Shown here piece by piece: positions 7,288-31,560 of a stretch of DNA of 46,998 nucleotides (position 1 is the stretch's first letter; every line of letters begins with the position of its first letter). The position numbers and the translations under genes are program-made. The DNA comes from an uncultured Erysipelotrichaceae bacterium (GTDB taxonomy: Bacteria; Bacillota_I; Bacilli_A; RFN20; CAG-826), in contig CADCEE010000016.1 in assembly GCA_902800355.1 (NCBI GenBank), forward strand, positions 1-46,998, in the 5' to 3' direction. The notes under the pieces were generated by a model. It worked only from the letters and a program-made list of their open reading frames with translations. It made no database searches and was not told where the DNA came from.

Positions 7288-7342
7288 ATGAAAGTGCTAA
7301 TATTTTTCCGTTCGCAACTTCTGGTTGCACGAGGATTTGAAT

Positions 7343-8980
7343 ATGACATTAGCTGAAAAAATTACACACTTAAGAATTGTCAATAATATCTCCCAAGAAC
7401 AATTAGCGGATCAACTTGGTGTGACCCGTCAATCGGTCTCTAAATGGGAAAGTGGTGAATCCATGCCACAAATTGATAAAGTCTTAGAATTATGTGAATT
7501 ATTTAAGATTACCGCTGACGAATTAATTAATGATTCCATCGTTATTCATCGCGGTAAAAAACTCCCTGTGAGCATTGGTGAAGATATTAAAACTAAATAT
7601 TTCGGTACCGATGGCTTTAGAGGAGAAGTAAACAAAACCTTAACTGCCGACCACGCTTATAAGATCGGTAGATTTTTAGGTTGGTTCTATGGAAACCCAA
7701 AATTTAACTCTCAAAAACCTGGTTATAGACCAAAAGTCGTTATTGGAAAAGACACCAGAAGAAGTAGTTATATGTTAGAGTACGCTGTTGCTGCTGGTCT
7801 TGCCGCTAGCGGAGCTGATGTATCTTTACTCCATGTTACGACTACTCCAAGCGTATCTTACATAGTAAGACAAGATTGCTTTGATTGTGGCGTGATGATT
7901 ACCGCTAGCCATAACCCATTTTATGATAACGGTATTAAAGTGATTAACGCTAATGGCGAAAAGCTTGAAGATGCAGTTGCATTCTTAGCGGAAGCCTATA
8001 TCGATGGCGATTTAAAGAAACTTGAAGTTGAAGGTGATGATCTCCCATTTGCCGAAAGAGGAAATATTGGTTCAATTACCGATTATAGCTCTGGAAGAAA
8101 TAGATATATTGCTTATTTAATTTCTTTAGCAAAACATTCTATGAAGTCTCTTAAGATTGGCTTAGATGCCGCTAATGGAGCAAGCTGGATGATTGCAAAA
8201 AGTGTTTTTGATGCTTTAGGAGCCCAAACTTTTGTTATTAATAACAATCCTGATGGATTAAACATTAATTTAGATGCTGGTAGCACTCATATTGAGAAGT
8301 TCTGTAAATATGTTAAAGACAATGATTTAGATTTAGGCTTTGCATTTGACGGAGATGCCGATAGATGTATCGCTGTTGATGAAAACGGTAAAGAAGTGGA
8401 TGGAGATAAGATTATGTATCTCTTATCTTGTAAATTAAAAGAAGAAGGTTCTTTAGAAAAAGACACATTAGTCACCACAATTATGTCTAATAGTGGTCTT
8501 ACTAAAGCTCTTAAAGCCATTGGAGTGAAAAACGTCCAAACCAAAGTTGGAGATAGATTCGTCTTTGAAAGAATGCAATCTGATGGTTATTCATTAGGTG
8601 GAGAACAATCTGGTCACGTCATTATTAAAAAATACGCAACTACTGGTGATGGTGTTTTAACTGCAATCATGGTTACTGAACAAGTTCTTGAGAAGAAAGA
8701 AAAACTTTCTAAACTAGTCGCTCCAGTTAAATTGCTCCCACAAATCACAAGAAACGTAAGAGTCACTAACAAAGCCGCAGTCGTAGCAGATGAAGAAGTT
8801 CAAGCCAAATTTAACGAAGTTAATAAAGAAATCGGTGATGATGGTAGAGCCTTATTAAGACAATCTGGTACTGAACCAGTTGTAAGAATCATGATTGAAC
8901 TTGATTCTAAAGAAAAATGTGAAGAATATATCTCTCGTATCTATAACGTCATTAAGAAAAGAGGATATGTTTGTGAATAA
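7343..8980 (+). CDS. glmM: Phosphoglucosamine mutase with an N-terminal XRE-type DNA-binding domain
   Basis: A single 545-residue frame. Residues 1-62 are a Cro/C1 (XRE) helix-turn-helix: SQEQLADQLGVTRQSVSKWE is the HTH, with the usual P-x-x-x-x-V-L-x-L-C-x-x-F-x-x-x-x-D-E-L tail. From about residue 83 it is a full phosphohexomutase: FGTDGFRGE start, phosphoserine loop I-T-A-S189-H-N-P, metal site D336-G-D338-A-D340-R, sugar loop GGEQSGH and the phosphate-binding RQSGTEP. It should convert glucosamine-6-phosphate to glucosamine-1-phosphate. There is no stop, frameshift or good internal start between the domains, so the fusion looks genuine. GAGGA precedes the ATG at 7343. The fusion could let the enzyme sense flux and regulate transcription; this is inference. 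An acyltransferase overlaps its 3' end. Confidence 0.9.
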   Translation: MTLAEKITHLRIVNNISQEQLADQLGVTRQSVSKWESGESMPQIDKVLELCELFKITADELINDSIVIHRGKKLPVSIGEDIKTKYFGTDGFRGEVNKTLTADHAYKIGRFLGWFYGNPKFNSQKPGYRPKVVIGKDTRRSSYMLEYAVAAGLAASGADVSLLHVTTTPSVSYIVRQDCFDCGVMITASHNPFYDNGIKVINANGEKLEDAVAFLAEAYIDGDLKKLEVEGDDLPFAERGNIGSITDYSSGRNRYIAYLISLAKHSMKSLKIGLDAANGASWMIAKSVFDALGAQTFVINNNPDGLNINLDAGSTHIEKFCKYVKDNDLDLGFAFDGDADRCIAVDENGKEVDGDKIMYLLSCKLKEEGSLEKDTLVTTIMSNSGLTKALKAIGVKNVQTKVGDRFVFERMQSDGYSLGGEQSGHVIIKKYATTGDGVLTAIMVTEQVLEKKEKLSKLVAPVKLLPQITRNVRVTNKAAVVADEEVQAKFNEVNKEIGDDGRALLRQSGTEPVVRIMIELDSKEKCEEYISRIYNVIKKRGYVCE

Positions 8981-22323: not shown

Positions 22324-23229
22324 ATGGATAGTTTAAAAAGTCTATTAGACAACAAACAATATGATTTAGTAATTAAATTAACCGAGACTAGCACAACTAG
22401 TAACGATTTATTTTATCGTATCTCCGCCTTTATCTTTTTAGGCAAATATGAAGAAGCTTTATATGTGATTCAAGATCATCAAGAAGTTTTAGAGTCTAAT
22501 TTAGTAGCGTTAATTAACGCACATATCAACTTGTTATGCGTTCTTGGTAGATTTGAACAAGCCTACACAGTTTTAGATTACTACGCTAACCTACCATATC
22601 AATCTCAAGTAGTAGAAGAAATCTTAAGAAAAATGCCTAAGGTTATTGAGGCTGAAGAAAAGAAACAAAATACATTTAAGTTTTATTCTGATGAAGAGTT
22701 AGAAGAAATGCTTAAATCTGAAAGGTTTGAAGATGTTTTATTAGCTTTAGATATCATTAAAAACCGTGATGTATTAGCCTTCTTGCCGTTTTTAAAAGAA
22801 TTACTTGTTTCTTCAAATAAAGAAGTTATTAAAAGCTATATCTTAATGATGCTTGTGAAGAAGGAAGTTGATCGTGACTTAACTATTTCAAAAGAAGGAC
22901 AATTAATCAACGTTAATCCAAAGAAATTAAACCCACCATTCCAAGGAGAAGTCTTTGATAAAGTTGTTAAAGGGTTTGACCGCGAATATAAAGATTCAAC
23001 ATTAAGTCAAATTGCCACGCAATTATTCTCTCAATATTCGATCTATATTTATCCTGATGAATATAAATATTCGGTTAATGAATATCTCGCTGTATTCTAT
23101 TTATTAGCGAAAGATTATGCTTCTAGTGGAAATGAAGATTTATCACTTTTAAGTTTTGCTAACGAATTAGATTTAGAAAAGATTAAGCAAATTAAAGCTG
23201 AAATCGAGAAGATGCTCGAAGAGTTCTAA
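22324..23229 (+). CDS. Alpha-helical repeat (TPR-like) protein of unknown function
   Basis: The 301-residue protein is almost wholly helical. Its N-terminal third resembles TPR-like hairpins (FYRISAFIFLGKYEEALYVI and INLLCVLGRFEQAYTVLDYY), followed by a charged linker and a second helical domain. No signal peptide or membrane helix is seen. The shape suggests protein-protein interaction. It may be a relative of DUF3196-type proteins of Bacillota, which I cannot confirm. It is coupled to rarA (1-nt gap) and ends before a terminator. Confidence 0.7.
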   Translation: MDSLKSLLDNKQYDLVIKLTETSTTSNDLFYRISAFIFLGKYEEALYVIQDHQEVLESNLVALINAHINLLCVLGRFEQAYTVLDYYANLPYQSQVVEEILRKMPKVIEAEEKKQNTFKFYSDEELEEMLKSERFEDVLLALDIIKNRDVLAFLPFLKELLVSSNKEVIKSYILMMLVKKEVDRDLTISKEGQLINVNPKKLNPPFQGEVFDKVVKGFDREYKDSTLSQIATQLFSQYSIYIYPDEYKYSVNEYLAVFYLLAKDYASSGNEDLSLLSFANELDLEKIKQIKAEIEKMLEEF

Positions 23230-27591: not shown

Positions 27592-27597
27592 ATGTTC

Positions 27598-27797
27598 GTT
27601 CGATGAATTAGAGGAGTAATTAAGACCTCTTCTTATAGAGAGCTAGGGACGGTGGAAGCCTAGTAGAAGAACTTAATGAAGGTCGCTAAGGAGAACTGAT
27701 TCTAATAATTTAGAAAATGAAGTGCCGATAACAAGTTTATCGGAACTAAGGTGGTACCACGTGAAATGCGTCCTTAGAATAAGGACGTTTTATTTTT
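27598..27797 (+). ncRNA. T-box leader sensing tRNA-Val
   Basis: A classic T-box riboswitch that ties valS expression to uncharged tRNA-Val. The conserved T-box AAGGTGGTACCACG is at 27748-27761; its bulge TGGT would pair with the tRNA end ACCA, fitting the A73 of tRNA-Val. The distal Stem I motif is CTAGG...GGTG-GAAG-CCTAG around 27650. The specifier reads GTC (Val) at 27682-27684 in the context GAAG-GTC-GC. The antiterminator pairs CTAAGG (27746-27751) with CCTTAG (27772-27777), competing with the terminator. Confidence 0.93.
27769..27797 (+). terminator. Regulated terminator of the valS T-box
   Basis: CGTCCTT / AAGGACG stem (27769-27787) around AGAAT, then a T-rich run. Its 5' arm is the segment taken up by the antiterminator when uncharged tRNA binds. 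Confidence 0.92.
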
Positions 27798-30400: not shown

Positions 30401-30428
30401 AGACCTGCAAAGCAGGTCTTTTATTTTG
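30401..30428 (+). terminator. Intrinsic terminator after valS
   Basis: Perfect AGACCTGC / GCAGGTCT stem around AAA... (30401-30418), followed by TTTATTTT. Confidence 0.93.
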
Positions 30429-30444
30429 CTAATCAACTTTTTAA

Positions 30445-30486
30445 ATTTTTTTCACAAATTTTCGATTTTTTTCACTCTGTTATATA
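30445..30486 (+). promoter_or_regulatory. Promoter region of the peptide-radC unit with two 11-bp direct repeats
   Basis: ATTTTTTTCAC occurs perfectly at 30445-30455 and 30465-30475, exactly 20 bp apart (about two helical turns). Just downstream is an extended -10, TG-T-TATATA (TATATA at 30481-30486). No good -35 is present, so the repeats may bind an activator; this is inference. Predicted start is 30490-30493. Confidence 0.45.
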
Positions 30487-30552
30487 TGAGAGGGGTAGTT
30501 AATATCCTCAGCTAAAATCATTTTCGTAACAAGTCCTTCGCTACCCCTCTCA
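30487..30552 (+). repeat. Long inverted repeat (12-bp perfect arms) abutting the Shine-Dalgarno of the peptide gene
   Basis: TGAGAGGGGTAG (30487-30498) and CTACCCCTCTCA (30541-30552) are perfect complements separated by 42 nt. The 3' arm ends on the A that begins AGGAGG (30552-30557). As RNA it would form a very stable stem next to the ribosome site; as DNA it could be a bipartite operator. I tested it by eye against T-box, purine, preQ1, THF, fluoride and ribosomal-protein leader signatures and none fit. Confidence 0.7.
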
Positions 30553-30564
30553 GGAGGTTTATTT

Positions 30565-30747
30565 ATGAAATACGAATTATTAACCGATTCTGAAATGGAA
30601 CAACAAGTTAGCGGTGAAGCTTTAACTTTAACCGCAGTGATGGCGGTCTTAGCAACTGCAATAATTGCCGTTATCGTTTATAAATTGTTTTTATCTGATA
30701 AAGGTAATGCTTCTGTTCCTGGTGGATGGAAGTTTAGTTGGAATTAA
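30565..30747 (+). CDS. 60-residue peptide with a bacteriocin-like leader and one membrane helix
   Basis: Sequence features: M-K-Y-E-L-L-T-D-S-E-M-E-Q-Q-V-S-G-E, which resembles the L-T/S-x-x-E-L/M...V-x-G-G leaders of double-glycine bacteriocins and peptide pheromones but ends G-E rather than G-G. Then come a hydrophobic helix (about residues 20-45) and a C-terminus with P-G-G-W-K-F-S-W-N. It has a perfect AGGAGG 7 nt before the ATG, so it is well translated. Its stop overlaps the radC start (TAATG). No peptidase-type ABC transporter is nearby. It could be a secreted peptide, a small membrane regulator, or a cryptic toxin; function unknown. Confidence 0.75.
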   Translation: MKYELLTDSEMEQQVSGEALTLTAVMAVLATAIIAVIVYKLFLSDKGNASVPGGWKFSWN

Positions 30748-31436
30748 TGGCGAAATTAAAAACATTACCTAAACTAGATCGGCCAAGAGAAAAAGCACTT
30801 CGATACGGTATTTCTTCTTTAAGTGATTCTGAGCTATTAGCGATTCTTTTAAATAGTGGTTATAAAGGAAATAATATCTTAGAAATATCAACTTCTTTAT
30901 TAAGCAAATATGGGGGAATAGTAGGTTTACTTAATATCCCCATTATGGAATTAAAAAAGAACAAAGGAATTAAAGATGTTGGTGCTTTAAAAATTGCCTT
31001 GATTGGGGAATTTTATAAGCGGATCGTCGAGAAGTTTAACATCTCTGATAATGAGATAATTGATGACGAATATTTATATAATAAATATAAGTCTGTGTTT
31101 TATCTAGCCACACAAGAGCATTTAATGCTTGTAATTTTAAACAAGAGAAAAAGGATAATTTATGAAACAAACATATATAAAGGGCAGAGCGATTCCATAC
31201 AAATTGATTTTAAAGATATCTACAAAGAATTGGCGAAATATGATGGTAAAAATTTTTATCTCATCCACAATCATCCAAGTGGAGATTGTTCCCCAAGCGA
31301 AGATGATATCCAAACAACATTAGAATTACTTAGTCAATGCCGCAGAATGAAAGTTAAGATGTTAGATCACATTATTATCGGAGATGAAAGTTATTATTCA
31401 TTTAAAAAAATGAAAAAAATAACGATTTATAGTTGA
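30747..31436 (+). CDS. radC: RadC family JAB/MPN-domain protein
   Basis: The 229-residue protein has an N-terminal helix-hairpin-helix-like part (RPREKALRYGISSLSDSELLAILL) and a C-terminal JAMM metalloprotease-like domain with H-N-H-P-S-G-D and the E-D-D stretch that complete the metal site. RadC is widely called DNA repair protein, but its true role is unsettled. I chose the ATG at 30747, one nucleotide inside the stop of the peptide gene (TAATG coupling). It ends in TGA, showing TGA is a stop in this organism. In Bacillus it lies between maf and mreB; both neighbours are missing here. Confidence 0.94.
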   Translation: MAKLKTLPKLDRPREKALRYGISSLSDSELLAILLNSGYKGNNILEISTSLLSKYGGIVGLLNIPIMELKKNKGIKDVGALKIALIGEFYKRIVEKFNISDNEIIDDEYLYNKYKSVFYLATQEHLMLVILNKRKRIIYETNIYKGQSDSIQIDFKDIYKELAKYDGKNFYLIHNHPSGDCSPSEDDIQTTLELLSQCRRMKVKMLDHIIIGDESYYSFKKMKKITIYS

Positions 31437-31468: not shown

Positions 31469-31560
31469 CGTTGTCGCCTCACTAGCTACAACCGCATAGA
31501 AAAGGTTTATAAAACCTTAGGGTTACCTTCATAGCGAGTCCTTAGTGAAATTTAATAAAA
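31469..31560 (+). ncRNA. Ribosomal protein L21 (rplU) leader RNA
   Basis: The gap before rplU is structured in the manner of the Bacillota L21 leader. TCACTA (31479-31484) can pair with TAGTGA (31543-31548) to close a long-range stem that encloses a hairpin AAGGTTT / AAACCTT (about 31503-31518) and GGTTACC. Such leaders are thought to bind a ribosomal protein for feedback control. Assignment is by position and pairing pattern. Confidence 0.65.

Follow-up and report, generated by a model that had tools for sequence, protein, structure and literature searches.

A predicted small membrane peptide encoded before radC is conserved across an order of small-genome Bacilli and may be processed by a C39 peptidase

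The DNA considered here (the window) is a stretch of 46,998 nucleotides from an uncultured Erysipelotrichaceae bacterium (contig CADCEE010000016.1) whose genome measures 1.14 Mb. On its forward strand a gene for a 60-residue peptide (30565-30747, +) begins with ATG behind a conserved Shine-Dalgarno sequence, AGGAGG (30552-30557, +), and runs into radC (30747-31436, +). Open reading frame, family comparison, selection and structure model all speak for the peptide gene. Its stop codon (30745-30747) and the radC ATG at 30747 share one base in the TAATG overlap that a preliminary description of this DNA had reported. The downstream product is a RadC/UPF0758 protein, with a UPF0758_N domain followed by a RadC/JAB domain in which the JAMM motif, HNHPSGDCSPSEDD, is intact. 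A terminator-like hairpin after valS (30401-30419, +) separates that gene from the pair, so that peptide and radC look like a transcription unit of their own. A T-box leader lies upstream of valS (27594-27778, +; 114 bits against Rfam) and an L21 leader between radC and rplU (31480-31552, +). Elsewhere in the window, an HTH_3 domain (residues 20-67) is in frame with a complete phosphoglucomutase/phosphomannomutase (7325-8980, +), which is either a fusion of an uncommon type or the result of a miscalled TTG start, and two open reading frames (22324-23229, +, 301 aa; 109-507, +, 132 aa) have no Pfam match at 0.001.

The peptide gene was originally described as encoding a membrane helix, and one transmembrane helix is indeed predicted. 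In the structure model (mean pLDDT 83.5) a short helix at residues 8-12 precedes the transmembrane helix at 17-43 and a C-terminal beta hairpin (47-59, paired as 47-51/55-59) with a PGG turn. The conserved parts are the transmembrane helix and the tail, which carries the motif GxxxxPGGxxFxW. Residues 1-17 resemble a leader, numbered backwards so that L6 is -12, E10 is -8, M11 is -7 and G17 is -1; on average the leader has a charge of -1.2 and the tail of +2.8. The model has no significant fold match in the PDB; neither Pfam nor NCBIfam has a family that the peptide matches above cut-off, and PHROGs gives no match that convinces. An origin in mobile elements was considered and rejected, as the window peptide has no plasmid match and a class-level relative no phage match.

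How widely is such a small gene kept? The peptide is present in 18/19 genomes of the genus, in 184/196 of the family (34/35 genera) and, by profile search, in 228/245 of the order, a figure that becomes 148/150 among genomes at least 90% complete. It has a single copy in the window genome and in most others; some show a second match, usually weak. Comparison of the window copy with close species gives a dN/dS of 0.02-0.04, a mark of strong purifying selection. The peptide has a median identity of 59% to the window copy, against 40% for RadC, and it is better conserved than RadC in 69 of 70 loci. This conservation is far from chance. Those near relatives that bear public names come from rumen and gut and are filed under Bacillales, Erysipelotrichaceae or Bacilli. 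By these comparisons the gene encodes a predicted small membrane peptide belonging to the core genome of its order, whose members are host-associated Bacilli with small genomes.

The DNA in front of the peptide gene had been read as elaborate regulation, a view that holds for a leader stem and fails for the repeats farthest upstream. Two exact 11-bp copies of ATTTTTTTCAC, 20 bp apart with starts at 30445 and 30465 (30445-30475, +), are present as described and occur exactly twice in the window, but 4/100 shuffles of the window give as much and relatives do not conserve them. A role as operator was rejected on the latter ground; they are probably T-rich promoter-upstream sequence. The extended -10-like TG-T-TATATA (30478-30486, +) is likewise present, though unlisted in a consensus promoter scan; an AT-rich -10 recurs at the same place in the genus, but the TG is not conserved. 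Directly after it comes the 5' arm of the stem, TGAGAGGGGTAG (30487-30498, +), a position that probably places the arm at the mRNA 5' end. The 3' arm, CTACCCCTCTCA (30541-30552, +), abuts the Shine-Dalgarno sequence, its last base being the first A of that element. The 12-bp inverted repeat is perfect (-22.1 kcal/mol, z -2.5), and its recurrence in the genus shows it to be more than chance.

An equivalent stem is found in 16/18 loci of the genus, directly after the -10 and mostly flush with the Shine-Dalgarno sequence, around loops of 39-94 nt; the scan missed one locus whose stem lies further from that sequence (L016), and another has only 6 pairs (L017). The arms vary among species, yet 8/8 outer positions pair in 15/15 aligned species, with compensatory changes at pair positions 2 and 4-8, so the covariation anticipated for 30487-30552 is there. 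Arms swapped between species pair at 79%, and 0/10,000 shuffles reach the observed value, a comparison somewhat biased by anchors chosen for pairing. Other genera carry a shorter inverted repeat at the Shine-Dalgarno sequence, ACCTCC...GGAGGT, which spans the likely -10, may act either as DNA or as RNA, and occurs in 20/51 peptide loci, against 5/45 for rplU, 0/35 for prp, 0/22 for rpmA and 0/35 for radC. Compared with Rfam, the leader matches no known RNA element. Stems at the 5' terminus beside the Shine-Dalgarno sequence are known from stabilised Gram-positive mRNAs, and in this genus the probable role of the stem is to stabilise the mRNA while leaving the Shine-Dalgarno sequence exposed. 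The hexamer CATATC recurs in the variable loops (L003, L004, L007, L010, L012 and L018), which in AT-rich DNA may be chance.

Conservation beside radC and purifying selection both run counter to the outcomes that the preliminary description had named as refuting it. In 70 family loci, picked by peptide match, radC directly follows the peptide gene, and nearly all whose contig reaches far enough also have valS before the pair and rplU after it; most loci from other families of the order have the same arrangement. Outside the order, radC is preceded in seven class members by a related peptide at a distance of 23-450 bp, and in an eighth, located by inspecting the DNA upstream of radC, another gene stands between the two (G359). 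These comparisons indicate an association that is old and not strict. Of the 196 family genomes, 153 have RadC (PF04002) and 184 have the peptide; all 153 RadC-positive genomes carry the peptide and none has RadC alone. About 31 genomes have the peptide without radC, a few of them owing to contig ends (G101, for example), and among 116 good family genomes the counts are 114 for the peptide and 92 for RadC. Two nearly or fully complete genomes (G035, 100%; G043, 98%) keep the peptide with no RadC match at all. Since some 31 genomes, one of them 100% complete, retain the peptide without radC, RadC appears dispensable for its role. In RadC-free genomes rplU comes after the peptide instead.

The proposal of a peptide/RadC system thus keeps its conserved adjacency and selection, and loses ground where RadC is the rarer and less conserved partner and the peptide stays intact without it. 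A functional link between the two would rest on adjacency and nested distribution. PGG is kept in 37/37 RadC-positive peptides and, among 18 from RadC-negative genomes, in 15 (FxW in 17); the three losses all fall in one genus, and PGG was not taken as a mark of RadC binding. A link of RadC loss to competence was also rejected: the ComEC model matches 124/196 genomes, often with marginal scores, including several RadC-free ones. A search of the open-access literature found nothing on a radC-linked peptide.

The leader was first described as bacteriocin-like, which is borne out by the family more fully than by the window copy. The motif recognised in ComA substrates is Leu(-12)-X3-Glu(-8)-Leu(-7), before GG (PMC6363468), and L6, E10 and M11 of the window peptide match it. 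In the family, L or M stands at -12 in 51/51 peptides, E at -8 in 48/51, L or M at -7 in 41/51 and G at -1 in 51/51. Position -2 is more varied (V18, P11, S7, G7, A5, T3); the window peptide has SG at -2/-1 where a double-glycine leader has GG, GA or GS, whereas relatives from other families, within the order and in the class, have canonical GG. Double-glycine leaders are hydrophobic at -4, -7 and -12 (PMC10885120), whereas the window peptide has Q14 at -4, a position that is mixed in the family and often polar; LahT is unable to process charged residues there (PMC6363468). In distant members, leader models for class II bacteriocins, ComC and BlpC match weakly. Two class members (G377 and G442) encode before radC a leaderless peptide of 41 aa whose start corresponds to that of the predicted mature part and is closely preceded by an in-frame stop, and neither genome has a C39 match; a counter-example, G518, has a GG leader and no C39 match. 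Around its Shine-Dalgarno sequence the leaderless gene of G442 has GGTCCTC...GAGGACC (L111, near 2720-2750), an inverted repeat of the type seen in the order.

Is there a peptidase that could act on such a leader? A C39 domain (PF03412) is present in 181/196 family genomes, and a profile built from the order's own protein recovers seven more, partly or fully (several as fragments at contig ends), which brings the count to about 188/196. The protein, typically 370-430 aa long, opens with the C39 domain and has hydrophobic segments that look membrane-like. Ten sequences, 14-38% identical to the first, all retain Q6, C12, H87 and D103, and from these catalytic residues we infer that the C39 peptidase of the window genome is active. 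Its profile aligns to PCAT1 over peptidase and transmembrane domain and stops before the ATPase; Pfam ABC_membrane gives no match, nor does ABC_tran, and the reading frame closes after some 405 aa. Among NCBIfam models the Mbov_0121 peptidase-ABC family comes nearest. In 13/14 loci inspected the gene lies upstream of ybeY, followed by cdd, era and recO where visible (L233 differs); it is not adjacent to the peptide gene. The window genome (G000) has two PF03412 proteins, one a complete PCAT of 722 aa. Three good-quality but fragmented assemblies (G023, G045, G078) contain the peptide with no C39 found. The gene that follows C39 in G035 (L226:4304-5515) resembles, on visual inspection, an ATP-binding domain in decay together with transmembrane helices, for which Pfam gives nothing firm, and the ybeY-linked C39 of G196 (L236:3026-3538) is a bare peptidase domain of 170 aa with no membrane part.

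The strongest of these facts are that the peptide is conserved throughout the order, that it has the leader motif, that a C39 protein is just as widespread and that the stem covaries. The best explanation is a model to which we give a probability of about 0.42. The peptide would descend from double-glycine-leader peptides; a C39 protein would remove residues 1-17, cutting after the invariant Gly17; and the mature peptide of about 43 residues, a helix followed by a C-terminal beta hairpin, would remain in the membrane, where it would do a housekeeping job in the envelope or in signalling. RadC, presumably made from the same transcript, may add to that job and would not be required. The link between C39 and peptide draws on the motif match, the shared distribution and one leaderless, C39-free genus. 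The shared distribution is weakly informative because both genes are nearly universal, and the leaderless case counts as one event because it concerns one genus. Against trimming, the family usually has V, P or S at -2 and frequently a polar residue at -4. Topology is where the model is under most strain: with a positive tail and a negative leader, the positive-inside rule favours a cytoplasmic C-terminus, which speaks against simple N-in insertion and is opposite to what cytoplasmic C39 cleavage implies. In the window genome the full PCAT could be the processor instead. That the peptide is a resident substrate of the ATPase-less C39 membrane peptidase of the order, with processing that inserts its product and does not secrete it, is a narrower and more doubtful proposition. 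As a putative processing partner, the C39 membrane peptidase encoded elsewhere is nonetheless better supported than RadC.

Could RadC and the peptide form one unit after all? With the peptide N-out/C-in, the hairpin would anchor RadC to the membrane, or be bound or cut by the JAMM centre. The positive tail predicts just this orientation, the JAMM motif is intact, RadC never occurs in the family without the peptide, and the two are adjacent in other families, outside the order and even in the leaderless form; PGG is invariant only where RadC is present. Yet the peptide persists and stays conserved in the RadC-free genomes, it is far more conserved than RadC, its PGG losses are confined to one genus, and in G359 another gene separates the pair, so that this arrangement seems an improbable one, if a serious competitor. 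Somewhat less probable still is that the peptide is never cut and serves as a small membrane subunit or regulator of another complex, its leader likeness a relic and C39 serving something else. The loss of Gly at -2 and of a hydrophobic -4 in most of the family, the concentration of conservation in transmembrane helix and tail, the leaderless relatives and the lack of a fold match all agree with that; but L-12, E-8 and G-1 are near-invariant, which a relic would lose, and C39 retains its active site across nearly the whole family.

A secreted bacteriocin or pheromone with a double-glycine leader would account for the leader likeness, the weak model matches of distant members and the full PCAT of the window genome. 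It is hard to reconcile with one copy in nearly every member of the order, with a core that is almost invariant and not diversifying, with neighbours (valS, radC, rplU) among which the loci inspected show no gene for immunity, for a receptor or for export, or with the missing plasmid and phage matches, and we think it quite unlikely. The idea that translation of the peptide gene, and not its product, controls radC fits the TAATG coupling and the elaborate 5' leader; strong selection at the amino-acid level and the persistence of the peptide without radC nearly refute it.

The C39-trimmed membrane peptide can be placed beside ComC, class II bacteriocins and LahA, the substrates of C39 and PCAT proteins, with which it shares L-12, E-8, L/M-7, G-1 and a short precursor; its distant relatives have the canonical GG, and nearly all the genomes a C39 peptidase. 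It differs from double-glycine peptides as a core gene of its order with a near-invariant mature part resembling a resident membrane helix, a -2 that in the family is usually not Gly, and an unlinked peptidase gene. The order's C39 protein has the Q/C/H/D residues of PCAT1 and of the Mbov_0121 peptidase-ABC transporters of mycoplasmas, and a region that aligns to the transmembrane domain of PCAT1, but it has no ATP-binding domain, and its relative in G196 consists of the C39 domain only. JCVI-syn3A 0401, an orphan C39 transporter, has a description similar to that of the Mbov_0121 family. For the C39 protein 0401 of the minimal cell and those of other mycoplasmas, no candidate double-glycine peptides were found (PMC6609329). 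RadC/UPF0758 has a JAMM fold and an unsettled function said to appear unrelated to DNA repair (PMC11981726); here radC comes behind a conserved peptide gene that has the same orientation and shares one base with it.

The peptide is among the better-conserved genes of a gut and rumen order, yet is covered by no Pfam or NCBIfam model at cut-off, and RadC, whose role is unsettled, gains a concrete genetic neighbour for study. If the C39 reading is true, orphan C39 peptidases in mycoplasmas and their relatives, 0401 of the minimal cell among them, would gain a candidate class of substrates, and a leader-peptidase system would be seen to serve a housekeeping membrane peptide and not secretion.
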